Positions 13,059-36,781 of a stretch of DNA of 64,000 nt are shown piece after piece. Below the pieces are notes generated by a model that saw nothing but the letters and a program-made list of their open reading frames with translations, ran no database searches and was not told the DNA's origin. The translations under genes were made by a program, and so were the position numbers. This stretch comes from Ruminococcus flavefaciens (GTDB lineage Bacteria > Bacillota > Clostridia > Oscillospirales > Ruminococcaceae): the NCBI GenBank assembly GCA_902760805.1, contig CACWHY010000011.1, positions 1 to 64,000 on the forward strand. The letters are read 5' to 3'. Position 1 is the stretch's first letter, and each line of letters starts with the position of its first letter.

Positions 13059-13074
13059 GTTAGCAAATACTAAC
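13059..13074 (+). promoter_or_regulatory. Candidate hydrogenase regulon operator, copy 1
   Basis: GTTAGCAAATACTAAC is a perfect GTTAG-N6-CTAAC palindrome. In gene direction it matches 14 of 16 bases of the site upstream of the TM1266-hydG operon, and the flanking AAATATCA is also shared. It lies about 90 bp upstream of the hydC -10 box. The cognate regulator is unknown; Rex is one candidate, but the half-site departs from its consensus. Confidence 0.55.
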
Positions 13075-13162
13075 CAAATATCAACACATCATACTGTCAA
13101 AAGTGCACAAGAAAAAAAGTCTCAATTAGTCTAAAATGGCGATAGAAATTTCCCTTATTATA

Positions 13163-13171
13163 TGGTATAAT
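13163..13171 (+). promoter_or_regulatory. Extended -10 promoter of hydCBA
   Basis: TGG-TATAAT (13163-13171) is a strong extended -10. No good -35 box lies 17 bp upstream, which fits a promoter needing an activator. Confidence 0.6.
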
Positions 13172-13256
13172 ACATTAAGATATGTGAGGAGTAATATAAG
13201 CGCCCCACAGCGGAGTTTGTTATTTCTTTCACATGAAAACAAAGGAGGTTCATCTA

Positions 13257-13751
13257 ATGAATTCAGCTAAATCTACTGTTCCTTTTAAGGGCACTCCTGA
13301 ACAGGAGGCTCAGCTCATCGCTGTTATCGACGAGAAAAAGGACGACCAGGGTTCTCTTATGCCTATCCTTCAGAAGGCTCAGGAGATCTATGGTTACCTC
13401 CCTATCGAGGTCCAGAAGATCATTTCTGACAGAACCGGCATCCCGCTTGAGAAGATCTACGGCGTAGTTACCTTCTATGCTCAGTTCTCCCTCTATCCCA
13501 AGGGTGAGTATACCATCTCGGTATGTCTCGGAACTGCCTGCTATGTTAAGGGCTCAGGCGATATCTATGACAAGCTCCAGGAAAAGCTCGGCATCGCCGG
13601 CGGCGAATGTACTGCTGACGGTAAGTTCTCTCTCGAGGCCTGCCGCTGCATCGGTGCCTGCGGTCTTGCACCTGTTCTCACAGTCAATGAGGACGTTTAC
13701 GGCCGTCTCACTGTTGACGACGTTGATAAGATACTCGCTAAGTACGCTTAA
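13257..13751 (+). CDS. hydC: Bifurcating [FeFe] hydrogenase subunit HydC (NuoE-like)
   Basis: This 164-residue thioredoxin-fold [2Fe-2S] subunit is homologous to NuoE/HndA. The cluster cysteines are in SVCLGTACYVKGS and about 40 residues later in EACRCIGACGLAP. With HydB and HydA it forms a cytoplasmic electron-bifurcating hydrogenase that couples NADH and reduced ferredoxin oxidation to H2 formation, as known for Ruminococcus albus HydABC. ATG 13257 follows AAAGGAGG by 8 nt and is preferred over 13233. HydB follows 23 nt later with its own SD. Codon use is strongly biased, as in highly expressed genes. Confidence 0.92.
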   Translation: MNSAKSTVPFKGTPEQEAQLIAVIDEKKDDQGSLMPILQKAQEIYGYLPIEVQKIISDRTGIPLEKIYGVVTFYAQFSLYPKGEYTISVCLGTACYVKGSGDIYDKLQEKLGIAGGECTADGKFSLEACRCIGACGLAPVLTVNEDVYGRLTVDDVDKILAKYA

Positions 13752-13774
13752 AATACCATATAGGAGGTAAACTT

Positions 13775-15673
13775 ATGAAAACTCTTGAAGAACTCAAGGT
13801 TGTCAGAGAATCAATGGAGGGCGAGGTAGCTCTCAGAACTCACGGCAGCGCTTCTTCAAAATACGAAAGACACGTCCTCGTCTGCGGCGGTACAGGATGT
13901 ACTTCTTCCGGCTCTCCCAAGATCATCGCTAAGCTGAAGGAGGAGCTTGCTGCAAACGGACTTTCAGATAAGGTACAGATCGTTAAGACAGGCTGCTTCG
14001 GCCTTTGTGAGCGTGGACCTATCATGATCGTTTATCCCGAGGGCTCATTCTACTCTCGTGTGAACGTTGACGAGATCCCCCGCATCGTTAAGGAGCACCT
14101 TGTTGACGGCAACCCTGTTAAGGAGTTCCTCTATGAGGAGACAGTTGTCGGCGACGAGATCAAGGCTCTCGATGACACAGCATTCTACAAGAAGCAGCAC
14201 CGTGTTGCTCTGAGAAACTGCGGCGTTATCGATCCTGAGAACATCAATGAGTACATAGGCAGAGACGGCTACCGTGCTCTGGGCAAGGTCCTCACTGAGA
14301 TGAAGCCCGAGGACGTTATCCAGACTGTTCTCGATTCCGGCCTTCGTGGAAGAGGAGGCGGCGGCTTCCCCACAGGTATGAAGTGGAAGCTGGCTAGAAA
14401 TATCGTTCCCGATGCTGACATCAAGTATGTCTGCTGTAACGCCGATGAGGGCGACCCGGGTGCTTTCATGGACCGTTCCGTTCTTGAGGGCGATCCCCAC
14501 GTTGTTCTTGAGGCTATGACTATCGCTGGTTACGCTATCGGCGCAACTCACGGCTATATCTACGTTCGTGCTGAGTACCCCATCGCTGTTGAGCGTCTGA
14601 ACATCGCTATCAAGCAGGCTCGTGAGGCTGGTATGCTGGGCGAGGATATCTTCGGCACAGGCTTCTCATTCGACATCGACCTCCGTCTCGGCGCCGGCGC
14701 TTTCGTCTGCGGTGAGGAGACAGCTCTCATGACCTCTATCGAGGGCAACCGTGGTGAGCCTAGACCCCGTCCTCCTTTCCCTGCTGAGAAAGGTCTGTTC
14801 CAGAAGCCCACTATCCTCAACAATGTTGAGACTTACGCTAATATCCCTCAGATCATCCTTAACGGTGCTGAGTGGTTTGCTTCTATGGGTACTGAGAAGT
14901 CCAAGGGTACTAAGGTATTCGCTCTGGGCGGTAAGATCAAGAACACTGGTCTTGTTGAGATCCCCATGGGTACTACTCTCCGTGAGGTGATCGAGGAGAT
15001 CGGCGGCGGTATCCCCAACGGCAAGAAGTTCAAGGCTGCTCAGACCGGTGGTCCTTCCGGCGGATGTATCCCTGCTGAGCACTTCGATATCCCGATCGAC
15101 TACGATAACCTGATCTCTATCGGCTCTATGATGGGCTCCGGCGGTCTCATCGTTATGGATGAGGACAACTGTATGGTAGATATCGCTAAGTTCTTCCTGG
15201 AATTCACCGTTGATGAGTCCTGCGGTAAGTGTACTCCCTGCCGTATCGGTACTAAGAGAATGTGGGAGATCCTGGATAAGATCACCAAGGGCAAGGGCAC
15301 TCTTGAGGATCTGGACAAGCTGGAAGAGCTGGCTTACCACGTTAAGTCTAACTCTCTCTGCGGCCTGGGCCAGACTGCTCCTAACCCCGTTCTCTCCACT
15401 CTCAAGTGCTTCAAGGACGAGTACATCGCTCACGTTGTTGACAAGAAGTGTCCTGCTGGCGTATGTAAGGATCTCCTCAGCTTTGAGATTATCAAGGATA
15501 ACTGCTTCGGCTGCGGTATGTGTGCAAGACAGTGTCCCGCAAGCGCTATCACTGTTACTGATTACACTGCTCCCGGCAAGAAGAAGCCCGCTTACAGCAT
15601 CGACAAGGATAAGTGCGTAAAGTGCGGAGCTTGTATCGCAACCTGTAAGTTCAAGGCGATCATCAAGAAATAA
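13775..15673 (+). CDS. hydB: Bifurcating [FeFe] hydrogenase subunit HydB (NuoF-like)
   Basis: This 632-residue flavoprotein contains, in order: an N-terminal [2Fe-2S] thioredoxin-like domain (CGGTGCTSSG, TGCFGLCERGP), the NuoF core with NADH site RGRGGGGFPTGMKW and FMN site NADEGDPGAFMDR, an SLBB segment, and the [4Fe-4S] site SCGKCTPCRIG. The C terminus carries two [4Fe-4S] ferredoxin motifs (CFGCGMCARQC, CVKCGACIATC). It is the NADH-binding and probable bifurcating subunit. The N-terminal domain takes the place of a separate HndB. HydA starts 15 nt after its stop. Confidence 0.94.
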   Translation: MKTLEELKVVRESMEGEVALRTHGSASSKYERHVLVCGGTGCTSSGSPKIIAKLKEELAANGLSDKVQIVKTGCFGLCERGPIMIVYPEGSFYSRVNVDEIPRIVKEHLVDGNPVKEFLYEETVVGDEIKALDDTAFYKKQHRVALRNCGVIDPENINEYIGRDGYRALGKVLTEMKPEDVIQTVLDSGLRGRGGGGFPTGMKWKLARNIVPDADIKYVCCNADEGDPGAFMDRSVLEGDPHVVLEAMTIAGYAIGATHGYIYVRAEYPIAVERLNIAIKQAREAGMLGEDIFGTGFSFDIDLRLGAGAFVCGEETALMTSIEGNRGEPRPRPPFPAEKGLFQKPTILNNVETYANIPQIILNGAEWFASMGTEKSKGTKVFALGGKIKNTGLVEIPMGTTLREVIEEIGGGIPNGKKFKAAQTGGPSGGCIPAEHFDIPIDYDNLISIGSMMGSGGLIVMDEDNCMVDIAKFFLEFTVDESCGKCTPCRIGTKRMWEILDKITKGKGTLEDLDKLEELAYHVKSNSLCGLGQTAPNPVLSTLKCFKDEYIAHVVDKKCPAGVCKDLLSFEIIKDNCFGCGMCARQCPASAITVTDYTAPGKKKPAYSIDKDKCVKCGACIATCKFKAIIKK

Positions 15674-15688
15674 GCGGAGGAATTATAA

Positions 15689-17437
15689 ATGGAAAATATC
15701 ACAGTTAAAGTCAATGGTTGTGAGATCTCCGTCCCCAAGGGTACTACTGTTCTTGAGGCTGCTCATATGGCAGGTATCGAGATCCCCACACTTTGCTATA
15801 TGAAAGAGATCAACGAGATCGGCGCCTGCCGTATCTGCGTTACTGAGGTAAACGAGGGCAGAGGCTTCCGCCTTGTTGCTGCCTGCGTATACCCCTGCTC
15901 CAATAATATGGAGATCCTCACAAGCTCACCTAAGGTGATCGAGTCCAGAAAGAAGACCTTAGAGCTCATCCTCTCTACTCACGACAGAAAGTGCCTGTCC
16001 TGCGTAAGAAGCGGAAACTGCGAGCTCCAGAAGCTCTGTAAGGACTACGGCGTTGAGGACGCTTCCAAGTACGACGGTACAAGAAATGAGTACGAGATCG
16101 ACGATACCGCTGCTCATATGTACAGAGATAACAACAAGTGTATCCTCTGCCGCCGCTGCGTGGCTGTCTGCTCAAAGACACAGGGTATCGGCGTTATCGG
16201 TGCTAACGAGAGAGGCTTCAAGACCTTCATCGGCTCTGCTTTCGATATGGGTCTTGGCGAGACAAGTTGCGTATCCTGCGGCCAGTGTATCGCTGTTTGT
16301 CCTGTAGGCGCTATCGCTGAGAAGGACTTCACTAAGGAAGTTCTCGCTGCTATCGCAGATCCCGAGAAGACCGTTCTTGTTCAGACTGCTCCTGCTGTTC
16401 GTGCTGGTCTGGCTGAGTGCTTCGGCAATCCTATCGGCACTAATGCCGAGGGCAAGATGGCTGCTGCTCTCCGCAGACTGGGCTTCGATAAGGTATTCGA
16501 TACCGATTTCGCTGCTGACCTTACTATCATGGAAGAGGCTAACGAGTTCGTTGAGCGTGTTTCCAACGGCGGTACTCTCCCCATGATCACTTCCTGCTCA
16601 CCTGGATGGGTAAAGTTCTGTGAGCACTACTATCCCGATCTTCTGGATCACCTTTCCACCTGCAAGTCTCCTCAGCAGATGTTCGGCGCTACAGCTAAGA
16701 CATACTACGCTCAGAAGATGGGTCTTGATCCTAAGAACATCGTTATGGTTTCTATCATGCCTTGTACAGCTAAGAAGTTCGAGATCGGCAGACCCGATCA
16801 GAGCGCTGCCGGCGTTCCCGATGTGGATTACGCTCTCACAACTCGTGAGCTTGGCAGAATGATCGAGCGTGCTGGTATCCTGTTCAACTCTCTCCCTGAT
16901 GAGAAGTTCGACGATCCGCTGGGCATCTCTACAGGTGCAGGCGTTATCTTCGGCGCTACAGGCGGAGTTATGGAGGCTGCTCTCAGAACAGCTGTTCATA
17001 CTCTCACAGGCCAGACTGTAACAGACCTCCCCGAGGTTCGTGGTACAGAGGGCATCAAGGAAGCTACCTACAAGGTAGGCGACCTTGACGTTAAGGTAGC
17101 TGTTGCAAGCGGACTTTCCAATGCAAGAGTTATCCTTGACAAGATCAGAAGCGGCGAGTGCGATGCTCAGTTCATCGAGATCATGGCTTGTCCCGGCGGC
17201 TGTGTAAACGGCGGCGGTCAGCCTCAGGTACCCATGGGTATCAGAAACTTCGTTGACATCAGAGCAGAGCGTGCTAAGGTCCTCTACGATCTTGACAAGT
17301 CAATGCCTCTGAGACAGTCTCACGAAAATCCCGCTATCAAGCAGGTTTACGAGGAATTCTTTGAGAAGCCCGGCAGCCACAAGGCTCACGAGGTGCTCCA
17401 CACTTCCTACGTTAAGAGAACTGTAAACGAGATATAA
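15689..17437 (+). CDS. hydA: [FeFe] hydrogenase catalytic subunit HydA
   Basis: This 582-residue catalytic subunit begins with a [2Fe-2S] ferredoxin domain (CRICVTEV and neighbours). A NuoG-type His-ligated cluster (HDRKCLSCVRSGNCELQKLC) and two [4Fe-4S] motifs (CILCRRCVAVC, CVSCGQCIAVC) follow. The H-cluster signatures L1 TSCSPGWVKFCE, L2 MPCTAKKFE and L3 MACPGGCVNGGGQP are all present. It reduces protons to H2 in the cytoplasm. Active-site assembly needs HydE, HydF and HydG; of these only hydG is in the window. A strong terminator follows. Confidence 0.95.
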   Translation: MENITVKVNGCEISVPKGTTVLEAAHMAGIEIPTLCYMKEINEIGACRICVTEVNEGRGFRLVAACVYPCSNNMEILTSSPKVIESRKKTLELILSTHDRKCLSCVRSGNCELQKLCKDYGVEDASKYDGTRNEYEIDDTAAHMYRDNNKCILCRRCVAVCSKTQGIGVIGANERGFKTFIGSAFDMGLGETSCVSCGQCIAVCPVGAIAEKDFTKEVLAAIADPEKTVLVQTAPAVRAGLAECFGNPIGTNAEGKMAAALRRLGFDKVFDTDFAADLTIMEEANEFVERVSNGGTLPMITSCSPGWVKFCEHYYPDLLDHLSTCKSPQQMFGATAKTYYAQKMGLDPKNIVMVSIMPCTAKKFEIGRPDQSAAGVPDVDYALTTRELGRMIERAGILFNSLPDEKFDDPLGISTGAGVIFGATGGVMEAALRTAVHTLTGQTVTDLPEVRGTEGIKEATYKVGDLDVKVAVASGLSNARVILDKIRSGECDAQFIEIMACPGGCVNGGGQPQVPMGIRNFVDIRAERAKVLYDLDKSMPLRQSHENPAIKQVYEEFFEKPGSHKAHEVLHTSYVKRTVNEI

Positions 17438-17442
17438 AAGCG

Positions 17443-17474
17443 AAGCCCCCGGCAAGTTCCGGGGGCTTTTTTCA
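17443..17474 (+). terminator. Intrinsic terminator of hydCBA
   Basis: AAGCCCCCGG (17443-17452) pairs with CCGGGGGCTT (17459-17468), with a 6-nt loop and a T-tract. A second inverted repeat (GGATGCAGG/CCTGCATCC near 17482-17513) sits just after and may act for the converging gene. Confidence 0.9.
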
Positions 17475-17523
17475 TATAATTGCGGATGCAGGGAGGCGCT
17501 CGCTGCCTGCATCCTCGCATTTT

Positions 17524-18123
17524 TTACTTTGTGAACGGCGCTTCCTTTTCTCGGAGGAAGTAGCCCTGCTCTGCTCTGCACACGGGACACTCCTTCGGCG
17601 GCTCGCTTCCAATGTGGATATGGCCGCAATTCAGGCAGATCCACACCTCCTCGGTGCTGTCCGACCGGAAAAGCGTTCCGGCTCGAAGATGTCCTCCGTA
17701 ATAGGCAAACCGCTCATGGTGGCTGCTCTCGATCTTGGCTATATTCCGGAATTTCTCCGCTGCCTCCGTGAAGCCCTCCTCCGCTGCGATCTGGGCAAAC
17801 TCAGGATAGACCTGTGAAGCCTCCTTCTCCTCCTCGGCGGCGGAGCTGTCCAAAAGCTGCTGTATATCGGTGAATACCGACGCCGGATAGCCGGCAGTGA
17901 TCTCGATTTCCTGGCCTGCTGACTCCTTCATCAGCTTCCAAAAGACCATTGCGTGGCGCTCCTCCTGCTCTGCGGTGAAGCGCAGCATTCGCTCGATACC
18001 GATCAGCTTTTGCTGCTGGGCGATAAGCGCCGCCTGATAGTACCTCTGCCGGGACTGGCACTCCCCTGCGAAGGCTCGCATTAGGTTTTGCCGAGTTCGG
18101 CTCTCATTAAAATTGACCTGCAT
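17524..18123 (-). CDS. Rubrerythrin-like protein
   Basis: This 199-residue protein has an N-terminal ferritin-like four-helix domain with metal-ligand segments (AFAGECQSRQRYY, EQEERHA, and later KIESSHHERF). A C-terminal rubredoxin-like zinc/iron ribbon follows (CLNCGHIHIGSEPPKECPVC). Rubrerythrins reduce peroxide in anaerobes using NAD(P)H-derived electrons. ATG 18123 is 7 nt from GGAGG; the earlier ATG at 18129 is too close. Convergent with hydA, it may protect oxygen-sensitive enzymes, which is inference. Confidence 0.9.
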   Translation of the reverse strand: MQVNFNESRTRQNLMRAFAGECQSRQRYYQAALIAQQQKLIGIERMLRFTAEQEERHAMVFWKLMKESAGQEIEITAGYPASVFTDIQQLLDSSAAEEEKEASQVYPEFAQIAAEEGFTEAAEKFRNIAKIESSHHERFAYYGGHLRAGTLFRSDSTEEVWICLNCGHIHIGSEPPKECPVCRAEQGYFLREKEAPFTK

Positions 18124-18171
18124 AAACATTCCTCCTTTTGAGGTTAGTTTGTGCAGGTCTTTTGGTTTTAT

Positions 18172-18669
18172 TCAAAATTCGCTCAAGAGGAAACTGCCCT
18201 GCTCCTTGTACCACTCCGGGTCAAAGGGCTTTGCGCAGATCCTGTCGATGTCAGCCTTGGTGAAAACGTAGGGACTGGCCTCCATAAACAGCAGGCCCTC
18301 CGGATGAGCGGCGAAATACTGCTCAGCGATGCCCAGCACCAGCCTGTAGCAGCCCCAGAAGGCCTCTATCCAGAAAAGCTGATCCCACAGGCCGCCATTT
18401 TGGTCGGTGTCCGGGAATTCGTCTATTTCGATATAGCTCAGGATATTGCTGTCCCCTTCGTGGGCAAAGACTTGATAGTAAGGGCTGTCCAGCTTGCCAT
18501 TTGACGGCTTTGCCGGAAAGAAAAGGATGTCCCTTTCACCCACAATACCGCCGGCGGCTCTTGTCGCAGTCACGAACTCATTGCAGAGCTCCTCCAGCTT
18601 TGTTGTATCGAAAAGGTCATGATCATCGTCAACCGGACGCTTTACCGCAAAATAGATACAGTTTCCCAT
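18172..18669 (-). CDS. Hypothetical protein
   Basis: This acidic 165-residue protein is not recognised. It lacks a signal peptide or membrane segment and contains Trp/Tyr-rich stretches (GGLWDQLFWIEAFWGCYRLV) suggesting a compact cytoplasmic fold. Its start is 2 nt after the stop of mntP and its SD (GGGAG) is inside mntP, so translation is coupled. This makes it a likely partner or passenger of the manganese exporter operon. Confidence 0.65.
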   Translation of the reverse strand: MGNCIYFAVKRPVDDDHDLFDTTKLEELCNEFVTATRAAGGIVGERDILFFPAKPSNGKLDSPYYQVFAHEGDSNILSYIEIDEFPDTDQNGGLWDQLFWIEAFWGCYRLVLGIAEQYFAAHPEGLLFMEASPYVFTKADIDRICAKPFDPEWYKEQGSFLLSEF

Positions 18670-18671
18670 GG

Positions 18672-19238
18672 TCAGATCACTCCCAGACCGTCCAGCAGCA
18701 GCTTCACGCCGATCAGCATCAGCACTATGCCTCCGCAGAGCTCCGCTTTTTTCTCGTAACGGCTGCCGAAGCGGTTGCCGATGACGACTCCCATGAGACA
18801 GACAAAAAATGTGATCAGGCCGATGACCGCCACTGAGAACGCCACCTTTGCCCTCTGAGCTGCGAAGACGATCCCCACGGCCAGAGCGTCGATACTTGTG
18901 GCGATCGCCAGCAATGTCAGCTCCTTCAGGTCAAGGCGGTAGGGCGAGAGCTCCTCCTCATCGCCGGAGCGAAGAGCCTCCCAGGCCATTTTTCCGCCGA
19001 TAAAGCCCAGAAGTATGAACGCCACCCAGTGACTGTAGCGGCTTATGTAGGCCTCAAAGCGGCTTCCAAGAAAATAGCCCAGCAGAGGCATCGCCGCCTG
19101 AAAACCTCCGAAAAACAGGGCGATCACGGCGGCTCCACGGTAGTCGATCCGCTTCATGCTCAGCCCCTTACAGACTGACACCGAAAATGCGTCCATTGCA
19201 AGCCCCAAAGACAGGAGCAGAAGTTCAGTAATGCCCAT
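18672..19238 (-). CDS. mntP: Manganese efflux pump MntP
   Basis: This 188-residue protein has six predicted membrane helices and two inverted three-helix repeats, each with the family Asp motif: LAMDAFSVSVCKG and ATSIDALAVG. MntP exports Mn2+ from the cytoplasm. ATG 19238 follows GGAGG by 6 nt; an upstream start at 19280 would add an unlikely extension. MntP genes are often controlled by an Mn riboswitch (yybP-ykoY), but the 72 bases upstream do not look like one. Confidence 0.9.
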   Translation of the reverse strand: MGITELLLLSLGLAMDAFSVSVCKGLSMKRIDYRGAAVIALFFGGFQAAMPLLGYFLGSRFEAYISRYSHWVAFILLGFIGGKMAWEALRSGDEEELSPYRLDLKELTLLAIATSIDALAVGIVFAAQRAKVAFSVAVIGLITFFVCLMGVVIGNRFGSRYEKKAELCGGIVLMLIGVKLLLDGLGVI

Positions 19239-19257
19239 ATTTTCCTCCAAAAGAAAA

Positions 19258-19300
19258 GGGTCGCCCCCTGTGCTGTTCAAGCATATGCAGGCGGCGCCCC
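19258..19300 (-). terminator. Probable terminator after acetyltransferase gene
   Basis: On the minus strand GGGGCGCCGCCTG pairs with CAGGGGGCGACCC with two mismatches, followed by TTTTCTTTT. It lies between the GNAT gene and mntP. Confidence 0.5.
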
Positions 19301-19310
19301 GGTTATTCTT

Positions 19311-19811
19311 TTACAGCGTGTACTCCATGATGAAGTCGTCCATGACGTAGCCAGATCCGATGTCGGTGACAGCCTCATCCACCTTCCTGAAGCCCACCTT
19401 TTCGTAGACATCTATGGCATGGCAGTTGTGCTTGTTCACGGTGAGATACACCGAGCTTTTCCCGTAGACCTGAGCCTCCCGGAAAACACGCTCCAGCATT
19501 TTTGAGGCAATTCCCCTGCCCCTTTTGTCCTTGCGAAGATAGAGCTTGCTCAGGAAGAACCTGCTGTCTTCCTCGGGCTTCACGGCGGTATAGCCGCAGA
19601 GCTCCCCGTCATCGTAAACGGCGAAATAGCTGTAGCCCTGAAGGTCTATCTGGTCTGTCATTGCGGGCAGAGACTGGAATTTCTCCACCATGTAGTCGAT
19701 CTGTCCCTGGCTGATGATGCCCACGAAGCATTCGTGCCAGATCTCATCTGCCAGCTCCGCCACTTTCCTCAGCTCAGGCAGGTACTTCACCCGCTTTATC
19801 TCCACTGACAT
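19311..19811 (-). CDS. GNAT family N-acetyltransferase
   Basis: This 166-residue GNAT protein carries the acetyl-CoA binding motif A (LSKLYLRKDKRGRGIASKML, with RGRGIA) and the downstream NCHAIDVYEKVGF block. The acceptor substrate is unknown. Its ATG overlaps the stop of yebC by one base (TAATG), so the two are translationally coupled. Confidence 0.88.
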   Translation of the reverse strand: MSVEIKRVKYLPELRKVAELADEIWHECFVGIISQGQIDYMVEKFQSLPAMTDQIDLQGYSYFAVYDDGELCGYTAVKPEEDSRFFLSKLYLRKDKRGRGIASKMLERVFREAQVYGKSSVYLTVNKHNCHAIDVYEKVGFRKVDEAVTDIGSGYVMDDFIMEYTL

Positions 19812-20545: not shown

Positions 20546-20654
20546 AATTTTCGCTCCTATCTGATTATTATTCGCTTATCTATTTCATCTTCGCCGGGGC
20601 TCTCAAAGATCCCTGCGAATTATTCTGCATATCCTTCCGCACATCATGATGACC

Positions 20655-21062: not shown

Positions 21063-21063
21063 A

Positions 21064-22368
<1,305 letters not shown>

Positions 22369-22407
22369 TTACGAATAAGTGCGGGAAAAATCCCTGTAAT
22401 AAAGAGA

Positions 22408-22432
22408 GATCCCAAGCGGAACGCTCGGGATC
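22408..22432 (-). terminator. Hairpin between rpmA and obg
   Basis: On the minus strand GATCCCGAGCG pairs with CGCTTGGGATC (one mismatch), followed by TCTCTTTATT. It probably acts as a partial terminator lowering obg expression relative to the ribosomal protein genes. Confidence 0.6.
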
Positions 22433-29244: not shown

Positions 29245-29249
29245 ATTGT

Positions 29250-30413
29250 TTATACCAATTTGAAATTATTGTCGCCGTCCAAATACCACATGGGCAGGTC
29301 GGTGGAATTGGGGCTGTCCTTTGAGGGAGCGATCAGGCTGACCTCTCCGCCGTCGCCCTTTGCAGCCTCAGTCAAGGCAGAGATGCCCTCTCCGCAGTCT
29401 GAGGAGGCGATAACGCAGGCGCAGGACGAGCTTCCGGCAGCTCCAAGAGATGCCCTCATGCCGGGCTGTACCTTCACTGCCAGAGCCTTTAGCAGGATCT
29501 GGGAGGGAGCGTCCGGGTTTTCCACGCTCTCAGCCGTCATTGAGCCGTCGCTTCCCCGGTATACCAGAGTGCTGGCAATGCCCTGCTTCACAAGGAGCCG
29601 GGCAAGTCCAAAGGCGGACTGGAGGATCTTCTCCTCCTTGACAACGGCCTCCTCCGGCTTTGCAGAAGGGCTGCGGTACAGATCCACCAGCACCATAGGC
29701 TGAACAGAAGAAGCCGCCTCGTCCAGTCTGACCATGAGCTTATCCTTTTTGGAGGACAGCTTCCAGTTCACACGCTTCAGGGGGTCGCCCTGAATGTACT
29801 CCCTGTGCTCATAGCCGGGGACGGTATTTGCGGAAAACAGCATAGTCGTGTCCTTATCCTCATCGTCATCACTGGTGGTAACGATGTCGGCGATATTTCG
29901 GAAGAGCTGAGATGAGGCCTTGACATCGGGGATCTCGGGGATGACTCCCACGCTTTTTGCCGCAGGGAGGCCCTCCTTCAGCTTTAGGCTGATAAATCCA
30001 AGAAATCCGCAGGAGCTGATCTTAGGCAGCGATACCTCGCCGTTTCCGCCGATCAAAGCCTTGATATTGAATGCGAAGGAGACCGGCTCAGAGCTGAAAA
30101 TGGAGAAACGGTAGGACTTCTCCTGCTTCTCAAAGACCTCTGATGCGCTGGGAGTGATCTCCACCACAGCCAGAGGACACCAGCCCTCCTTCTCGATAGT
30201 GACTGTTACAGGGAGCTCTCCGCCCTTTTTCACATAGCCGTCGCAGTCGAAGCTGACCCGGATCCTTTTCCGGGCATAGACTGCCATTGCCAGCGAAAGC
30301 AGCGGAGCTATCAGCAGGAAGGCGATGAGGATGATCCCCATTTCGCCGTCCACATAAAATGTGAAGATGAACAGCACGAAGGCCACAGCCAGTGCTGCAA
30401 GTACGCTTTTCAT
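29250..30413 (-). CDS. DUF58 domain protein
   Basis: This 387-residue protein has two N-terminal membrane helices, a beta-rich middle and the DUF58 signature EYIQGDPLKRVNWKLSS, followed by a von Willebrand-like region. DUF58 proteins work with MoxR ATPases, probably as their membrane substrate or adaptor. It starts 2 nt after the moxR stop. Confidence 0.9.
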   Translation of the reverse strand: MKSVLAALAVAFVLFIFTFYVDGEMGIILIAFLLIAPLLSLAMAVYARKRIRVSFDCDGYVKKGGELPVTVTIEKEGWCPLAVVEITPSASEVFEKQEKSYRFSIFSSEPVSFAFNIKALIGGNGEVSLPKISSCGFLGFISLKLKEGLPAAKSVGVIPEIPDVKASSQLFRNIADIVTTSDDDEDKDTTMLFSANTVPGYEHREYIQGDPLKRVNWKLSSKKDKLMVRLDEAASSVQPMVLVDLYRSPSAKPEEAVVKEEKILQSAFGLARLLVKQGIASTLVYRGSDGSMTAESVENPDAPSQILLKALAVKVQPGMRASLGAAGSSSCACVIASSDCGEGISALTEAAKGDGGEVSLIAPSKDSPNSTDLPMWYLDGDNNFKLV

Positions 30414-30415
30414 GG

Positions 30416-31354
30416 TCAGCTTCCCATTTCGGGAACAGCACAGCTCTCAAGGATATGGGCGATATAGCCCTCCGGCGAGCCGAACTCGCTGCGTCCCTGG
30501 GGCGAGAGGATCACTCTGTGAGAAAGCACGGAAACAGCCACGTTCTTCACATCGTCGGGAGTGACATACTCCCTCTCATAGATGTAAGCGAAGGCCTTTG
30601 CCGCTTTGTAAAGGGCAATGCTTCCTCTGGGACTTATGCCAAGAGTAGCGTTCCTGTCGTCACGGGTGGCGCTAACTATAGAAACTATGTATTTTTTCAC
30701 CTGCTCAGTGACCCGGATATCCCGGACCTCCTGCTGCATTTGGATGATGTCGTCAACTGTCATGGCCGGCTCTGAGATATTCTCGATGGGGTTGTGCATC
30801 TCAGTGCGCTCAAGGATCCTGATCTCCTCCTCAGCGGTGGGGTAGCCCATGGAGAGCTTCATGAAGAAACGGTCCATCTGCGCTTCGGGGAGGTGGAACG
30901 TGCCGTAGGTCTCAACGGGGTTTTGCGTAGCCATTACCAGGAAGGGCTTTGGCAGACGGTGAGTTTCGCCGTCAAGGGAGATCTGTCTTTCCTCCATAGC
31001 CTCAAGAAGTGCGGACTGCACCTTCGGCGAGGCACGGTTGATCTCGTCAGCCAGGAGGAAGTTGCATATAACAGCGCCGTCACGGTAGACGAAATCGCCT
31101 GTTTTCTGATCCAGCATAGTGAAGCCTGCGATGTCAGAGGGCATAACGTCTGGAGTAAGCTGGATACGGTTGAATTTTCCGCCGATAGAGCGGGATAGAG
31201 CGGTAATTAGCTGAGTTTTGCCGACTCCGGGAACGTCCTCAAGAAGAACATGGCCCTCGCAGAGAAGAGCTGCGATAAGGCGGATAACGGTGTCGTCCTT
31301 ACCAACTATGACCTTCCCTACAGATCCGGCAAGTCTGCTGATCTTTTCGTTCAT
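30416..31354 (-). CDS. MoxR family AAA+ ATPase
   Basis: This 312-residue AAA+ protein has Walker A EDVPGVGKTQL, Walker B LLADEINRASPK and the sensor region ATQNPVETYGTFHLPEAQ. MoxR proteins act as chaperone-like ATPases for VWA/DUF58 partners, here the next gene. GAGGT lies 8 nt before the ATG. It heads a probable operon of six minus-strand genes with very small gaps down to 23537. Confidence 0.93.
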   Translation of the reverse strand: MNEKISRLAGSVGKVIVGKDDTVIRLIAALLCEGHVLLEDVPGVGKTQLITALSRSIGGKFNRIQLTPDVMPSDIAGFTMLDQKTGDFVYRDGAVICNFLLADEINRASPKVQSALLEAMEERQISLDGETHRLPKPFLVMATQNPVETYGTFHLPEAQMDRFFMKLSMGYPTAEEEIRILERTEMHNPIENISEPAMTVDDIIQMQQEVRDIRVTEQVKKYIVSIVSATRDDRNATLGISPRGSIALYKAAKAFAYIYEREYVTPDDVKNVAVSVLSHRVILSPQGRSEFGSPEGYIAHILESCAVPEMGS

Positions 31355-31394
31355 TTGGTGTACCTCGTGATGATATTTTTATCCATTGTATAAC

Positions 31395-31423
31395 ATTATA
31401 TCACAGATCCACTAAAAATGCAA
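31395..31423 (-). promoter_or_regulatory. Promoter of moxR operon
   Basis: On the minus strand TTGCAT, a 17-bp spacer and TATAAT (31400-31395) form a good SigA promoter. Confidence 0.75.
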
Positions 31424-31461
31424 CCTCCACAGAGAAACTTTTCCGAGATTTTTAATAAAAA

Positions 31462-31493
31462 AAGAGCCCTTCCCATTTTGGGGAAGAGCTCTT
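31462..31493 (-). terminator. Intrinsic terminator
   Basis: AAGAGC-T-CTTCCC pairs with GGGAAG-G-GCTCTT around CAAAAT, followed by a T-run on the minus strand. It ends the gene at 31505-32167. Confidence 0.85.
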
Positions 31494-31504
31494 TTGAGCA
31501 CTTA

Positions 31505-32167
31505 TCAATAGAAGTCAGGCTGTGCGTCCTTCTTCTTGCCCTTTACCAGAGATACGATAAGGAGAACAAGTCCAAGGAGAGCAAGAGCTGCACCGCCGAA
31601 GCAAAGGCCCATCATAGCAGGCTTTACCTCGTTGCCAACGATACGCATAGCAGTTGCGTGCTCGTACTCCTCGATACCAACGTTCTTCAGGTCGTCGATA
31701 GCCTCCTGATAATACTGGTCGTAGTCGTCCTCAGAGGGCTGAGAAGCCAGCTTACCCTTGAAATCGATAGAAACTACAGGCTTATCCTCCTCAGCAACGC
31801 TCTCGTCTGTGAAGTAGTTGTACCACTCATCAGCAGCATCGTTGAGCTTAGAGATCATATCCTTGTTGGCAGTTGAGAGAACTACGAAAGCCTCGCCCTC
31901 TTCAAGGTTGCTGACAATGTAGAAGTTTGTCTCTGTCTTGCTTGTAGTGATGCCGTAGTGCTTCTGAGTCTGCTCAAGAACAGCGAAGGGTCCGTAAACG
32001 AAGTCGATAGTTCCCTCAGCCAGAGCGTCATCAGAGAAATCCTCGATGGGAGCTGTCAGATCAACGGTCTTGCCCTTGATCAGAAGCATTGTGTCCTGGA
32101 AGCCTGCGATAGCACACAGCAGACCTGCAACAAAAATGATGAGAAATGCTTTAGTTTTACCTTTCAT
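31505..32167 (-). CDS. Two-helix membrane protein, unknown function
   Basis: This 220-residue protein has an N-terminal hydrophobic helix (KAFLIIFVAGLLCAIAGF), an acidic extracytoplasmic domain of about 150 residues and a C-terminal helix (GGAALALLGLVLLIVSLV) with a basic tail. This is the layout of a membrane-anchored extracellular domain held at both ends. The family is not recognised. ATG 32167 follows GGAGG. It lies 75 nt after tsf, beyond a modest terminator. Confidence 0.7.
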   Translation of the reverse strand: MKGKTKAFLIIFVAGLLCAIAGFQDTMLLIKGKTVDLTAPIEDFSDDALAEGTIDFVYGPFAVLEQTQKHYGITTSKTETNFYIVSNLEEGEAFVVLSTANKDMISKLNDAADEWYNYFTDESVAEEDKPVVSIDFKGKLASQPSEDDYDQYYQEAIDDLKNVGIEEYEHATAMRIVGNEVKPAMMGLCFGGAALALLGLVLLIVSLVKGKKKDAQPDFY

Positions 32168-32193
32168 AATAAACCTCCAATGATCCTTGTCAC

Positions 32194-32230
32194 AAAATAA
32201 AAAGTGGGGCAAGGCATCACCATGCCGCAC
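32194..32230 (-). terminator. Probable terminator of rpsB-tsf
   Basis: On the minus strand GGCAT/ATGCC with an outer GTG/CAC is followed by TTTTTATTTT. The stem is imperfect, so readthrough into the next gene is likely. Confidence 0.5.
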
Positions 32231-32242
32231 AGTAGTCTCTTC

Positions 32243-33160
32243 TTACTTGATCATGTTAGCGATCTCGTCTGCGAAGTTCTCTTCCTTCTTCTCAACGCCA
32301 TCGCCACGCTCGTAGCGAACAACGTCAACGACCTTGATAGAGCCGCCCAGCTTCTTAGCCTCAGCGTCAACATAGCCCTGAACAGTGAGCTTGTCGTCCT
32401 TAACGAAGGACTGCTCCAGCAGGCAGTTCTCAGAGTAGTACTTGCCTACCTTGCCCTCAACGATCTTAACTCTAACCTGCTCAGGCTTGTTAGCCATCTT
32501 AGGATCCTCAGCCATCTGAGCAAGCATGATCTCCTTCTCCTTCTCAATTACCTCAGCAGGTACCTGCTCACGGCAGAGATAGGGAGCATTGAGAGCTGCG
32601 GACTGCATAGCAACGTCCTTACCGATAGCTGCAACTGCATCAGCAGAGAGCTCTGTATCCAGCTTAACGAGAACGCCGATGCTGCCGCCGTTGTGGATGT
32701 AAGAAGCGAGAACGCCCTCCATTCTAACGAAACGACGGATAACGATGTTCTCACGGATCTTCATGCCAGCAAGCTCTGTGAGAGCCTCGCCTACTGTACC
32801 ATTGCCGCCGGAGATCTGCTCGTTCTTGAGAGCCTCAACGTCAGCGGGGTTCTTCTCGATGATGGTCTTAGCAACAGCAGCAACGAAGTTTCTGATGTCG
32901 TCTGTATTAGCAGCGAAGTCTGTCTCAGTATTTACCTCGAGGAGAACACCAACGTTACCCTCAACAACAGCTGTAACTACGCCCTCAGCAGCAGCTCTGC
33001 CGCTCTTCTTAGCCTGTGTAGCCAGGCCTTTTTCTCTCAGGAACTCGATAGCCTTGTCCATATCGCCGTCGTTAGCCTCAAGAGCCTTCTTGCAGTCCAT
33101 CATACCAACGCCGGTAGACTTCATCAGTTCTTTAATTTCTGCAACGGAAACCTTTCCCAT
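32243..33160 (-). CDS. tsf: Elongation factor Ts
   Basis: This 305-residue protein starts MGKVSVAEIKELMKSTGVGM and has the conserved MDCKKALEANDGDMDKAIEF and TDFAANTDDIRNF segments. It regenerates EF-Tu-GTP. The start at 33160 follows AGGAGG. It is downstream of rpsB, the usual order, with an inverted repeat (GGCTGC/GCAGCC) but no U-tract between them. Confidence 0.95.
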   Translation of the reverse strand: MGKVSVAEIKELMKSTGVGMMDCKKALEANDGDMDKAIEFLREKGLATQAKKSGRAAAEGVVTAVVEGNVGVLLEVNTETDFAANTDDIRNFVAAVAKTIIEKNPADVEALKNEQISGGNGTVGEALTELAGMKIRENIVIRRFVRMEGVLASYIHNGGSIGVLVKLDTELSADAVAAIGKDVAMQSAALNAPYLCREQVPAEVIEKEKEIMLAQMAEDPKMANKPEQVRVKIVEGKVGKYYSENCLLEQSFVKDDKLTVQGYVDAEAKKLGGSIKVVDVVRYERGDGVEKKEENFADEIANMIK

Positions 33161-33245
33161 TGTTATTACCTCCTGTTTAGTTATAGATATGATCAAGGCT
33201 GCCGCCCCGTTCAGACGCCGGCAGCAGCCCTTTACGTTTCTTTGA

Positions 33246-33953
33246 TTATTCAGCTGACTCCTCAGCGGGTGCCTCCTCAGCAGGAGCCTCCTCAGCCTGA
33301 GCGTTGTCGTCGCCCTGTCTGCCCTCGATGATAGCGTTAGCAACAGTGCCGGCGATCAGCTTTACAGCACGGATAGCGTCGTCGTTGCCGGGGATAACGT
33401 AGTCAACTTCGTCAGGATCGCAGTTCGTATCAACGATAGCAACGATCGGGATGTTGAGCTTCTTAGCCTCAGCTACAGCGATCTTCTCCTTGCGGGGATC
33501 AACGATGAACAGAGCTGCGGGGAGCTTCTTCATTGTCTTGATACCGCCCAGGAACTTCTCGAGCTTCTCGATCTCGAGGTTGAGCTTAACAACTTCCTTC
33601 TTAGGGAGAAGTGCGAATGTGCCGTCCTCCTCCATAGCGTGGAGCTGCTCAAGTCTCTTTATTCTGGTCTGGATAGTCTTGAAGTTTGTGAGCATACCGC
33701 CCAGCCATCTAGCGTTTACATAGTGAGCGCCTGCACGGGTAGCCTCTTCTCTTACGGAATCGCCAGCCTGCTTCTTTGTACCTACGAAGAGAACTTCGCC
33801 GCCCTGAGCGGAAAGGTCACGAACGAAGAGGTAAGCCTCCTCCAGCTTCTTGACTGTCTTCTGAAGGTCGATGATGTAGATACCGTTTCTCTCTGTGAAG
33901 ATGTACGGTGCCATTTTGGGGTTCCAGCGTCTTGTCTGGTGTACTACTGCCAT
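33246..33953 (-). CDS. rpsB: Ribosomal protein uS2 with N-terminal deletion
   Basis: This 235-residue protein is clearly uS2 ([48 protein letters not shown], acidic C-terminal tail). The N terminus reads [14 protein letters not shown], whereas uS2 normally has about 13 more residues (SMKQLLEAGVHFG) between MAVV and HQTRR. The deletion is in frame, and the SD AAGGAGG is 9 nt before the ATG. The missing first helix is very conserved, so this is either a true variant or an assembly error. Confidence 0.93.
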
Positions 33954-34063
33954 TGTGGTAGTCCTCCTTAAAATTGGTTAAAATTATTCCTCCGCCCGGC
34001 TTAGCTCACGGACGACGCAGAGATCTGCGCACCGGTCCGCAAAAGCACAAGCGTGCGAATTGC
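33954..34063 (-). other. Structured leader of rpsB
   Basis: The leader of about 110 nt contains nested stems, GCGGAC/GTCCGT outside and CGCAGA/TCTGCG inside (about 34008-34040). Such structures suit autoregulation by a ribosomal protein. Not matched to a named family. Confidence 0.4.
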
Positions 34064-34069
34064 CTTAAT

Positions 34070-34098
34070 ATTATAGCATATCCTGTCAATTTTTTCAA
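34070..34098 (-). promoter_or_regulatory. Promoter of rpsB-tsf
   Basis: On the minus strand TTGAAA, a 17-bp spacer and TATAAT with a TGC extension form a strong promoter. Confidence 0.8.
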
Positions 34099-34113
34099 GA
34101 GTATTTCCCTTGG

Positions 34114-34404
34114 TCAATCGAACAGACTTCTCAAACCTCTGCCATACTTTTTTGGTGATATAGCCGAGTCGCTGAGCCTCACCAGTATCACCTCACTGCC
34201 GATGACGGAAATATCCTCACAGGAAACAACGATGTCAGGCTCTCTCCCCAGCAGGCCGAAGAGCCGGTACCTGCCGAAGATCACCAGTCCTCTTACCTGA
34301 GAAGAGGCTGTGTCCAGCCGCACGTCGTCGATAAAGCCAAGGCGCTCGCCGGTGGTCTGGTCGATGACCTCTTTTGACCGCAGCTCCTCCAGTGAACAAA
34401 GCAT
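34114..34404 (-). CDS. YlmC/YmxH family PRC-barrel protein
   Basis: This 96-residue protein begins MLCSLEELRSKEVIDQTTGERLG and continues IDDVRLD and GLVIFGRYRLFGLLG, typical of the YlmC/YmxH sporulation-associated PRC-barrel family in Firmicutes. Its exact role is unknown. ATG 34404 follows GCGGAGGG; the longer frame lacks an SD. Confidence 0.8.
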   Translation of the reverse strand: MLCSLEELRSKEVIDQTTGERLGFIDDVRLDTASSQVRGLVIFGRYRLFGLLGREPDIVVSCEDISVIGSEVILVRLSDSAISPKKYGRGLRSLFD

Positions 34405-34464
34405 AAAGATCCCTCCGCAAATGACTTCTTGAGAAATCATATGCAGAGGGGCCTGTACAAGATA

Positions 34465-34611
34465 TTATTCGTCGCCGTCCTTTTTCTTCAGCAGGAAGGC
34501 AGTTACCAGAACGATCACCGCAACAACAGCGATGATGATCAGGGTCTTTGCCGGGAAATTGTCCCCTGTGAAGGGCACGGCAGCGAGCAGTGCGAGCATT
34601 GTCAGCAGCAT
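34465..34611 (-). CDS. Tiny membrane protein with VPFTGD sorting-like motif
   Basis: This 48-residue product starts with a hydrophobic stretch (MLLTMLALLAA). A VPFTGD motif follows, then a second hydrophobic helix (TLIIIAVVAVIVLVTAFLL) and a KKKDGDE tail. That order (PxTG-like motif, helix, basic tail) is the layout of a sortase signal, yet almost nothing precedes it. AAGGAGAGG lies upstream of the ATG. It may be a small membrane protein that only resembles a sorting signal. Confidence 0.6.
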   Translation of the reverse strand: MLLTMLALLAAVPFTGDNFPAKTLIIIAVVAVIVLVTAFLLKKKDGDE

Positions 34612-34726
34612 GATGGTCCTCTCCTTTTCATGGTTTTCGTCTATAGCAATATTGTACCACAATTGCCATAGCTTGTCAACACCGGGCAGCACATGAGTTG
34701 AGAGTGCTGCGGACTCAAAAAGCAGA

Positions 34727-34745
34727 GGCGGACGATCTGTCCGCC
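34727..34745 (-). terminator. Intrinsic terminator of hydG operon
   Basis: GGCGGAC (34727-34733) pairs with GTCCGCC (34739-34745), followed on the minus strand by TCTGCTTTTTGAG. Confidence 0.7.
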
Positions 34746-34758
34746 CCGGTGTGCTTTT

Positions 34759-36210
34759 TTAGAAACGGAAATCTCTCTTGTTGCCGGACTTGATCTCCTC
34801 AAGGTAGTCGATTGCACGCTGACGGCGCTTCTCATCGGGAACATTCAGGATCTCACGGGCGATGAGCTCCTCGCCGATCTTCTTGGTCTCGGGGCTTGCG
34901 TAGTCAACAAGGTACTCCTGAAGAGTCATGAGGGCGTTGGGGTGGCAGCAGTTCTGGATCTGTCCCACCTTGCACAGTGCCATGAAGCGGTCGCCGGTGC
35001 GTCCCTCACGGTAGCAGGCTGTGCAGAAGGAGGGGATGTAGCCCAGCTCCATGAGCCAGCGCACTACCTCGTCCAGTGAGCGCTGGTCAGAAACGTCGAA
35101 CTGCTCGGTGTCGTGGGGACGCTCATCAGGCGTGTAGCCAGCATAGCCGCCCACAGAAGTTCTGGATCCGCCGGAGATCTGGGAAATTCCCAGGCCAAGG
35201 ACCTTGTTTCTGCAAGCCTCGCTCTCACGGGTGGAGATGATCATGCCGGTGTAGGGAACTGCGATCCTGATACAGGCAATGATCTTTGCGAATGTGTCGT
35301 CGTCGATACCGTTGTCGAAGGTATCAGGGTCGATGTCGCTGGCTCTCTTCAGACGGGGAACGCTGATCGTGTGGGGGCCAACGCCGTGAACAGCCTCAAG
35401 GTGCTCAGCGTGCATGAGGATACCTGCGAACTCATAGCGGTACTTGTCCAGACCGAAGAGAACTCCCAGGCCAACATCGTCGATACCGCCCTCCATAGCT
35501 CTGTCCATGGCCTCGGTGTGGTAAGCGTAGTTGTGCTTGGGTCCTGCCGGGTGGAGCACCTCGTAGCTCTCCTTGTGGTAGGTCTCCTGGAAGAGGATAT
35601 ATGTGCCGATGCCTGCATCGTGGAGCTTCTTGTAGTTTTCAACAGTTGTTGCGGCAATGTTGACATTTACTCTGCGGATAGCTCCGTTCTTGTGCTTTAT
35701 ACTATAAATAGTGTCGATACATTCAAGGATGTACTCGATAGGATTGTTCACAGGGTCCTCGCCGGCCTCGATAGCAAGGCGCTTGTGGCCCATGTCCTGG
35801 AGAGCGATCACCTCGTTGCGGATCTCCTCCTGAGTCAGCTTCTTGCGGGGGATCTCCTTATTCTGGGAGTGATAGGGACAGTAAACGCACTTGTTCACGC
35901 AGTAGTTTGAAAGATACAGCGGTGCGAACATTACGATACGGTCGCCGTAGAAGGCCTCCTTGATCTGGCGAGCCAGGTCGTAGATCTTCTCGGTCATTTC
36001 GGGGATGTCACAGGCCAGAAGCACGCTTGCCTCTCTGTGGGAAAGTCCTGCGCACTCAACTCCCCTGCCTGTCTTCTTGGGAGCAGCCTTCTCAAGCAGA
36101 GACTCGATCAGCGCACGGTCGTGCTTGTGCTGGTCAGCGTACTCCAGAGTAGCAAGGATCTCCTCATCGCTGATGAATTCCTCAGCCTTCATTGATCTTA
36201 CGTCATACAT
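34759..36210 (-). CDS. hydG: [FeFe] hydrogenase maturase HydG
   Basis: This 483-residue radical SAM enzyme has the CX3CX2C cluster motif CVNKCVYC. The C-terminal second-cluster motif (CTACYREG and the later CC of QNCC) is typical of HydG. HydG splits tyrosine to make the CO and CN ligands of the H-cluster. SD AGGAGG is 9 nt before the ATG. It forms an operon with the TM1266-type gene upstream. Its product is needed by HydA, encoded about 17 kb away; hydE and hydF are not in the window. Confidence 0.94.
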   Translation of the reverse strand: MYDVRSMKAEEFISDEEILATLEYADQHKHDRALIESLLEKAAPKKTGRGVECAGLSHREASVLLACDIPEMTEKIYDLARQIKEAFYGDRIVMFAPLYLSNYCVNKCVYCPYHSQNKEIPRKKLTQEEIRNEVIALQDMGHKRLAIEAGEDPVNNPIEYILECIDTIYSIKHKNGAIRRVNVNIAATTVENYKKLHDAGIGTYILFQETYHKESYEVLHPAGPKHNYAYHTEAMDRAMEGGIDDVGLGVLFGLDKYRYEFAGILMHAEHLEAVHGVGPHTISVPRLKRASDIDPDTFDNGIDDDTFAKIIACIRIAVPYTGMIISTRESEACRNKVLGLGISQISGGSRTSVGGYAGYTPDERPHDTEQFDVSDQRSLDEVVRWLMELGYIPSFCTACYREGRTGDRFMALCKVGQIQNCCHPNALMTLQEYLVDYASPETKKIGEELIAREILNVPDEKRRQRAIDYLEEIKSGNKRDFRF

Positions 36211-36297
36211 ATTATAATACCTCCTGAGTTTGTTTCAAGTTATAAGTGCTTAGCTAAGAGCTGCTGTATTCGCTCACATTATCTTTCCGCTCTCAGC

Positions 36298-36546
36298 TCA
36301 TTTCTTCGAGACTGCTGCCTTTACCGAAACTCCGGGAATGTGTCCCAGCCTTCCGGTGAGGCTGCTTATGCGGTCGGGAGTTGCATCCAGAGCGACCGAG
36401 ATCAGCGAGATCCCACGCTCCCTGTAAGGCAGTCCCATTCGTCCGATGATGATGTCGTTGAACTCATGGAGCACGCTGTTCACCTCGGGGACAGCCTGCT
36501 GCTCGTCGATCACCACCGCCGCAACTGCGATGCGTTTTTCTTCCAT
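36298..36546 (-). CDS. TM1266-family hydrogenase-associated regulator
   Basis: This 82-residue ACT-like protein (MEEKRIAVAAVVIDEQQAV, IIIGRMGLPYRERGISLISV) matches the TM1266 family found beside hydEFG genes and annotated as an iron-only hydrogenase system regulator. It lacks a DNA-binding domain, so it may bind a ligand or a partner. ATG 36546 follows AGGAGG. A long structured leader precedes it. Confidence 0.88.
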   Translation of the reverse strand: MEEKRIAVAAVVIDEQQAVPEVNSVLHEFNDIIIGRMGLPYRERGISLISVALDATPDRISSLTGRLGHIPGVSVKAAVSKK

Positions 36547-36711
36547 ATTACCTCCTGTCATCAGGCGGCACACAACAAAAAACCGCCTGCAAACGGGCAG
36601 ACGGGGGCAATTACACATTATGTACTGCTGACCGATAGCAAAGCCGTAGCTCCGCTGCCCGAAAACATTTTTGTGAAAGCTGTCGGCGGAGGAATAAATC
36701 CCTTCGTCCAC
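36547..36711 (-). ncRNA. Candidate riboswitch / attenuator leader of hydG operon
   Basis: A leader of about 165 nt runs from a strong promoter to the TM1266 start. It contains a full intrinsic terminator (36577-36604) about 30 nt before the start codon. GGGCAG (36660-36655 in RNA sense) can pair with CTGCCC of the terminator's 5' arm, which would break the terminator. A separate 7-bp pairing (CAGGCGG/CCGCCTG) involves its 3' arm. CTCCGC/GCGGAG forms a further stem upstream. This is the layout of a transcription-controlling riboswitch; the class is not recognised. Confidence 0.55.
36577..36604 (-). terminator. Leader terminator of hydG operon
   Basis: On the minus strand CCGTCTGC pairs with GCAGGCGG (one mismatch), with a 6-nt loop followed by TTTTTTG. 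It stands inside the leader, before the SD. Confidence 0.75.
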
Positions 36712-36717
36712 GCTTTA

Positions 36718-36746
36718 ATGATAGCACATTGACAGAGAAATGTCAA
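36718..36746 (-). promoter_or_regulatory. Promoter of TM1266-hydG operon
   Basis: On the minus strand TTGACA, a 17-bp spacer and TGC-TATCAT form an extended -10 promoter 20 bp downstream of the shared palindrome. Confidence 0.75.
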
Positions 36747-36765
36747 TATCGCCGCTGATATTTTT

Positions 36766-36781
36766 GTTAGTATTGGCTAAG
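36766..36781 (-). promoter_or_regulatory. Candidate hydrogenase regulon operator, copy 2
   Basis: In gene direction CTTAGCCAATACTAAC differs at only two positions from the site upstream of hydC and keeps the same orientation and the flanking AAATATCA. It sits just upstream of the -35 box. Confidence 0.55.

Follow-up and report, generated by a model that had tools for sequence, protein, structure and literature searches.

Two operons in a 64,000-nucleotide stretch of Ruminococcus flavefaciens DNA (contig CACWHY010000011.1, positions 1 to 64,000; this whole stretch is referred to as the window) are preceded by near-identical 16-bp palindromes: hydCBA, which encodes an [FeFe] hydrogenase, and TM1266-hydG, which encodes an H-cluster maturase. 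Which signal do the two operons share? The same box stands in front of the hyd operons and of iron-uptake genes, which suggests that the building of the iron-hungry hydrogenase is timed by iron supply. With a probability of roughly two in three, we take the palindrome to be the operator of a DtxR-family iron regulator that represses iron uptake and, when iron-loaded, favours the genes of hydrogenase maturation and Fe-S assembly.

The box in the window, the genome and the genus

The two boxes and the genes behind them are as follows:

13059..13074, plus strand: iron-type box ahead of hydCBA, GTTAGCAAATACTAAC, centred 99.5 bp upstream of the -10 element
13257..13751, plus strand: hydC, NuoE/HoxE-like subunit (NCBIfam), start codon picked by its Shine-Dalgarno sequence
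13775..15673, plus strand: hydB, NuoF-like subunit (NCBIfam)
15689..17437, plus strand: hydA, NADH-dependent group A6 [FeFe] hydrogenase (NF040763, 878.8 bits)
34759..36210, minus strand: hydG, H-cluster radical SAM maturase (TIGR03955, 905.9 bits)
36298..36546, minus strand: TM1266-family gene, 82 aa from ATG (TIGR03959)
36766..36781, minus strand: iron-type box ahead of TM1266-hydG, CTTAGCCAATACTAAC, centred 50.5 bp upstream of the -10 element

Re-reading the window confirmed what a sequence-only reading of this DNA had reported, namely that the boxes lie at these positions, agree at 14 of 16 bases and are each oriented towards their operon. A shared flank, AAATATCA, had been noted as well: it is present behind both boxes, but it lies one base farther away at the second and is not conserved in relatives, and is therefore probably due to chance. 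Within the window there are four matches at no more than three mismatches, compared with 1.5 expected, and 10 of 100 shuffles reach the same count; the pair by itself is therefore weak evidence, and the real evidence comes from the whole genome and the genus.

In the 2.73-Mb genome from which the window is taken, GTTAG-N6-CTAAC occurs at 13 exact sites and at 35 with no more than one mismatch, as compared with 0 and 15 for the reversed pattern, and in 60 genomes of the genus 204 exact sites are found versus 28 control sites. The exact boxes of the own genome lie upstream of genes for FeoA (two boxes), DUF2325 (two), two DUF6796 proteins, a methyltransferase, an ABC/FtsX exporter, enolase and an NPXTG-anchored protein with a Shr-like domain, as well as upstream of the NifU-like/GGGtGRT operon and hydC; one falls within an open reading frame (ORF; C7:17590). 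The FeoB and DUF3793 genes each have a box with a single mismatch. Enrichment of the operator at iron-uptake genes holds throughout the genus, where 28 of 30 feoB loci have an upstream box at no more than one mismatch.

Boxes were scored with a matrix of 34 sites, 14 from the own genome (both hyd sites excluded, the NifU-like site included) and 20 from the feo regions of relatives. A score of at least 7 is reached in 33 of 47 hydC upstream regions of the genus (2.6 expected from shuffles) and in 26 of 46 TM1266 upstream regions (1.9 expected), in good agreement with the proposal of one operator common to both operons and conserved in relatives. The accompanying proposal of a hydrogenase regulon with a regulator of its own did not hold up, because neither hydE (C6:63727) nor hydF (C32:24556), where further copies would have supported it, has GTTAN8TAAC at one mismatch or less in its locus of approximately 4 kb, and because most exact boxes stand at iron-uptake and other genes. 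As judged from the sequences, the box regulon is of the iron type, and the box does not serve hydrogenase genes alone.

The divergent gene at 12278-12952 was considered as the true target of the hydC box and rejected, since the box persists where the nearest upstream ORF is co-directional (6 of 33 boxes at hydC, 5 of 26 at TM1266 and 4 of 19 at the NifU-like operon, by rough ORF calling). By HydG, the closest named relatives are rumen Ruminococcus, including R. flavefaciens, with identities of up to 90%. The box was also looked for at TM1266 in other genera: among 80 named HydG loci, TM1266 is present in 66, and a plausible box lies 230-246 bp upstream of it in seven, all with a HydG 89-90% identical to the query; one more full GTTAN8TAAC match at TM1266 (L121) falls outside this identity group, and in L077, L078 and L082 the box is found farther upstream of TM1266, ahead of the leader RNA described below. 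A survey of the open-licence literature by title or abstract opening found no DtxR or iron box at Ruminococcus hydrogenase genes.

As to the surroundings, hydC and hydG share one contig within spans of approximately 20-26 kb (13233 to 36210 in the window) in at least 16 genomes of the genus, the own included, with varying relative strand. A rubrerythrin-like gene (17524-18129, minus strand) is convergent with hydA, and a gene for a protein with a dockerin and BspA-type leucine-rich repeats (36827-38053, minus strand) lies just upstream of the hydG box.

Box position, helical spacing and the candidate regulator

Eight boxes of the own genome are centred 15.5-23.5 bp downstream of the start of the -10 element, i.e. 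at about +4 to +12; these belong to feoA, DUF2325, the two DUF6796 genes, the methyltransferase, the ABC exporter, enolase and DUF3793. The same placement, 13.5-25.5 bp past a called -10, recurs at 11 of the 30 feo loci of the genus. A location just behind the -10 is what would be expected of a repressor that blocks transcription. At the enolase gene the box right behind the -10 is an exact one (L047 5990; C4:22989). Some feoA loci have box pairs, 97-98 bp apart in five of them (L051 6273-6385, L206, L210, L214 and L220), which would suit a repression loop, and 86, 102 or 113-114 bp apart in five others.

Three operons, TM1266-hydG, NifU-like and hydCBA, have their box ahead of the promoter. 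For the first of these, the promoter in the window is:

36718..36746, minus strand: TM1266-hydG promoter TTGACA-17-TATCAT

Distances from the box to the -10 in the genus are 39.5-41.5 bp (21 promoters), 50.5, 52.5, 61.5 (three), 62.5 and 72.5 bp at TM1266-hydG, where a box is present in 28 of the 40 rows that could be read, always in phase; in most relatives the hydG box stands directly upstream of the -35, with a gap of 8-10 bp. At the NifU-like operon, where 19 of 38 upstream regions score at least 7 (18 of 37 without the own-genome site, which is part of the matrix), the distances are 61.5 (15 promoters), 60.5 (two) and 51.5 bp (two). The 47 box-bearing promoters of the two sets are spaced in steps of whole helix turns, at about 40, 51, 61 and 72 bp; for the NifU-like set, this pattern had been predicted, with the own-genome case (61.5 bp) in hand, before the genus was searched for that operon. 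For a period of 10.5 bp, R is 0.94 for TM1266-hydG and 0.98 for the NifU-like set, with a common phase of 8.94 and 8.95, respectively, and only 0.1% of random sets are as well phased as the four distinct TM1266 length classes. Because the lineages share descent and are not independent, the spacing classes amount to few events and not to 47, and the counts are inflated, yet at least four lengths occur. Among the 16-18 rows of the commonest distance in each set, pairwise identity is 0.84-0.89 in the half-sites versus 0.44-0.54 in the spacers. Such stepped upstream spacing resembles the arrangement of an activator. The NifU-like operon (L048 5929; C5:27928), with its box upstream and in helical phase, also encodes the GGGtGRT protein, which is named after its own GGGTGRT motif, and is divergent from a gyrase-B-type gene.

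The TM1266-hydG distances were measured with the leader RNA and its promoter as anchor. The 42 rows comprise 38 of the 42 covariance-model matches in the genus plus L077, L078, L082 and L085 from the 14 matches among named loci; a weak match (L266, box at 51.5 bp when start-anchored) and three opposite-strand matches were left out. Two of the 42 rows have too little upstream DNA and 12 have no box. When the start codon served as the anchor, 3 of 26 TM1266 promoters fell outside the classes (26.5, 48.5 and 58.5 bp); leader anchoring moved L301 and L295 to 62.5 and 72.5 bp, and the third, L308, with its box far upstream, has no box there.

Which protein might read the box? The own genome encodes two proteins with the DtxR C-terminal domain (PF02742), one of them above the cut-off. 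The DtxR-family protein C5:107108, 128 aa in length, has some match in 59 of 60 genus genomes and one of at least 72% identity in 48. Its nearest solved relatives are Escherichia coli-type MntR, IdeR and DtxR, and the closest NCBIfam models are those of MntR, below their cut-off. In its recognition region, SRPTVS is similar to the SGPTVS of IdeR, and DACKIEH, which aligns with EACRWEH, retains the Cys, Glu and His of what we take to be the metal-ligand stretch. Low-identity second DtxR matches occur in most genomes of the genus, and the own-genome paralogue C30:13425 (L065) lacks the metal-ligand residues. What ties the DtxR family to the box is context: of six loci with further DtxR paralogues in relatives, four (L353, L354, L356 and L358) have the box ahead of the paralogue's own gene behind a TATAAT, and three (L353, L354 and L355) lie within 5 kb of feoAB. 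The C5:107108 protein is the likely reader of the box in the own genome.

The hydCBA promoter and the TM1266-hydG leader RNA

Three further elements make up the hydCBA promoter:

13095..13109, plus strand: second promoter element TGT-N9-ACA, starting 71 bp upstream of the -10
13126..13134, plus strand: third promoter element TTAGTCTAA, genus form AATTAGGCTAA, starting 40 bp upstream of the -10
13166..13171, plus strand: extended -10 TGGTATAAT, with a poor -35, TAGAAA, at 13143-13148

When 43 genus hydC promoters were searched 85-46 bp upstream of the -10, TGT-N9-ACA was found in 35; its distance was 71 bp in all but one of these, where it was 70 bp. The box itself lies 98.5-99.5 bp from the -10 in 21 of 32 promoters and at 87.5, 94.5-95.5, 109.5, 114.5 or 119.5 bp in the others; one row (L189), in which no -10 was found, was dropped from this count. 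Since this promoter combines an extended -10 and a poor -35 with two more elements at fixed positions, iron is likely to be one of several inputs at hydC.

TM1266-hydG is preceded by a leader of two conserved domains with a terminator just before the gene, the region as a whole covering 36717-36573 (minus strand):

36624..36717, minus strand: structured leader RNA, conserved (model R1); the window copy scores 83.6 bits and is among the 22 model sequences
36583..36604, minus strand: intrinsic terminator hairpin followed by a T-run, upstream of the TM1266 start codon

Double changes affect 13 of the 25 pairs predicted across the 22 leaders, the observed values exceed those of all 500 shuffles on five measures, and the covariation values drop when the pairing partners are slid; the structure was derived from the same alignment as the covariation test, and helix 2 hardly varies. 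The case for the leader RNA rests on this covariation, the fold energy of the window's own leader being unexceptional (z -1.7). In 13 of the 22 leaders, the window's own not among them, CGGAUGG of the second domain can form six or seven pairs with the 5' arm of the terminator, and this possible antiterminator pairing is changed on both sides in some leaders (CGGACAG/CUGUCCG).

The R1 covariance model matches 38 of 49 genus hydG loci at E < 0.001 (22 of them in the model) and 11 of the 80 named HydG loci, nine named as Ruminococcus and two named only as Bacillota and Clostridiales; it has no match in 68 other loci, 27 of them from the own genome. No family of Rfam 15 reaches its gathering score for the leader, all matches being far below it. 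In L077 an alpha/beta-hydrolase gene precedes TM1266, and the RNA and the box stand together ahead of the hydrolase gene. The leader is a candidate attenuator, orphan riboswitch or attenuator read by the TM1266 protein. We put it slightly below an even chance that maturase synthesis is gated twice: an iron-loaded, helix-phased activator of the DtxR family would act at the promoter, and an orphan riboswitch or TM1266-read attenuator would choose between terminator and antiterminator in the leader.

Weighing the readings and comparison with known systems

According to the mechanism that we favour, the iron-loaded regulator would block feoAB and other genes from its site just behind the -10, and at TM1266-hydG and NifU-like/GGGtGRT, where the upstream box keeps a fixed helix face, an iron-loaded dimer would touch RNA polymerase and raise transcription. 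Through its upstream box, hydCBA would be joined to the same signal, in a promoter with two further conserved elements. Iron-poor cells would open iron uptake and turn down the Fe-S-rich enzyme system. We infer activation from the position of the upstream boxes, the precedent of Corynebacterium glutamicum DtxR and the iron responses of Bacteroides thetaiotaomicron and Clostridioides difficile; binding by the C5:107108 protein and iron as the signal are likewise predicted.

Several observations speak against this mechanism. The box is absent or weak at 14 of 47 hydC, 20 of 46 TM1266 and 19 of 38 NifU-like upstream regions. The promoters of hydG and of the NifU-like operon come close to consensus (TTGACA or TTGATT, with TATAAT-like -10 elements), so the need for an activator is not obvious, and since repressed promoters also have second, upstream boxes (in the own genome at 75.5 bp for feoA and 45.5 bp for DUF3793), an upstream box need not mean activation. 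Two own-genome boxes fit neither positional class, one 60.5 bp behind the -10 of the Shr-like gene and one 88.5 bp upstream at a TetR gene. At hydC, 11 of 32 boxes lie away from 98.5-99.5 bp, the boxes are about half a turn out of phase with the others (phase 4.36 versus 8.95), i.e. on about the opposite helix face, and the best-conserved parts of the promoter are the two other elements and not the box; with the box some 99 bp away on another face, the sign of control at hydCBA is less certain. As for the regulator, one DtxR paralogue locus (L357) has neither a box in front nor feo genes, a strong box occurs in the locus of the main DtxR gene in only 1 of 30 cases, and the search covered DtxR-family proteins, not Fur.

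Among the alternatives, a regulon confined to hydrogenase and run by a dedicated H2 or redox sensor would explain a box common to two hyd operons, and the extra fixed elements at hydC could be redox or H2 inputs; we consider it very improbable, since it is contradicted by the genome-wide distribution, with hydE and hydF lacking the box and most exact boxes at iron-type genes. Rex is the redox-type candidate for hydrogenase and fermentation genes in clostridia, and its operator is TTGTTAAN4TTAACAA. The best match per upstream region has 2-6 mismatches out of 14 at hydC (one region at 2) and 3-7 at TM1266, and the GTTA-TAAC spacing is N8 in the box versus N6, placing the half-sites two bases farther apart, so that the half-site difference from Rex stated in the sequence-only reading is borne out and Rex was rejected. 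A chance similarity without function could account for a pair hardly above chance within the window; genus-wide conservation and stepped spacing refute it, leaving it a negligible probability.

Two readings keep more weight. The box might be read by another regulator, such as one of the Fur family, or respond to another metal such as Mn: MntR models are the closest to the main DtxR protein, Fur lay outside the regulator search, and it regulates iron in C. difficile (PMC6311696). This is improbable in our view, because feo genes and the promoters of some DtxR genes themselves have the box, and TTAG-N6-CTAA is contained in the DtxR consensus TTAGGTTAGSCTAACCTAA given in PMC1382209. Somewhat less improbable, though still unlikely, is an iron regulon in which the upstream hyd boxes repress, the iron-loaded dimer blocking polymerase or looping to a second protein, so that hydrogenase would go up in low iron. 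The box directly upstream of the hydG -35, helical phasing, which fits repressor-polymerase contact too, and the paired feoA boxes, which are compatible with looping, all agree with it. No second box, however, is found at hydC (0 of 33) or TM1266 (0 of 26) promoters, the C. glutamicum precedent is one of activation (PMC1382209), and low iron lowers hydrogenase-type genes in B. thetaiotaomicron and C. difficile (PMC10434189, PMC6311696).

As the best reading we retain a DtxR-type iron regulator that would repress uptake and activate from upstream boxes. If iron status indeed sets the transcription of hydrogenase and maturase, iron supply would give direct and testable leverage over H2 and electron flow. 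The H2 of cellulolytic Ruminococcus feeds rumen methanogens. A short DtxR-type activator of Fe-S and hydrogenase genes would, if real, widen the known targets of dual iron regulators, and through the leader RNA there is a new way to approach both what is sensed in the cell during H-cluster assembly and the unassigned TM1266 family.

The leader resembles terminator-type riboswitches and attenuators in its structure, its terminator before the gene and its possible antiterminator; it differs in that no Rfam 15 family reaches the gathering score. From Rex the proposed system differs in operator spacing and in a regulon that contains iron uptake. Mycobacterial IdeR is a DtxR-family iron regulator of dual function, as is proposed here, in another phylum and with other target genes. 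Low iron brings hydrogenase genes down in C. difficile as well, with Fur boxes and no occurrence of the word DtxR in that text (PMC6311696). In B. thetaiotaomicron, a member of another phylum, iron shortage lowers GGGtGRT/NifU 11-12.8-fold and hydGEF 2.9-3.6-fold, and these operons are of the same two kinds that have the upstream box here (PMC10434189). A close parallel in site architecture is C. glutamicum DtxR, whose sites lie within the promoter of repressed genes, iron uptake among them, and, for genes whose expression drops in a dtxR mutant (cg2782 ftn, cg3327 dps and cg0445 sdhCD), upstream of the -35, with half-sites TTAG/CTAA as here (PMC1382209). The C. glutamicum consensus is 19 bp long (PMC1382209), whereas the Ruminococcus box is a single 16-bp palindrome, GTTAG-N6-CTAAC, with a short protein of 128 aa as candidate reader and, as targets, an [FeFe] hydrogenase, its maturase and a NifU-like operon.

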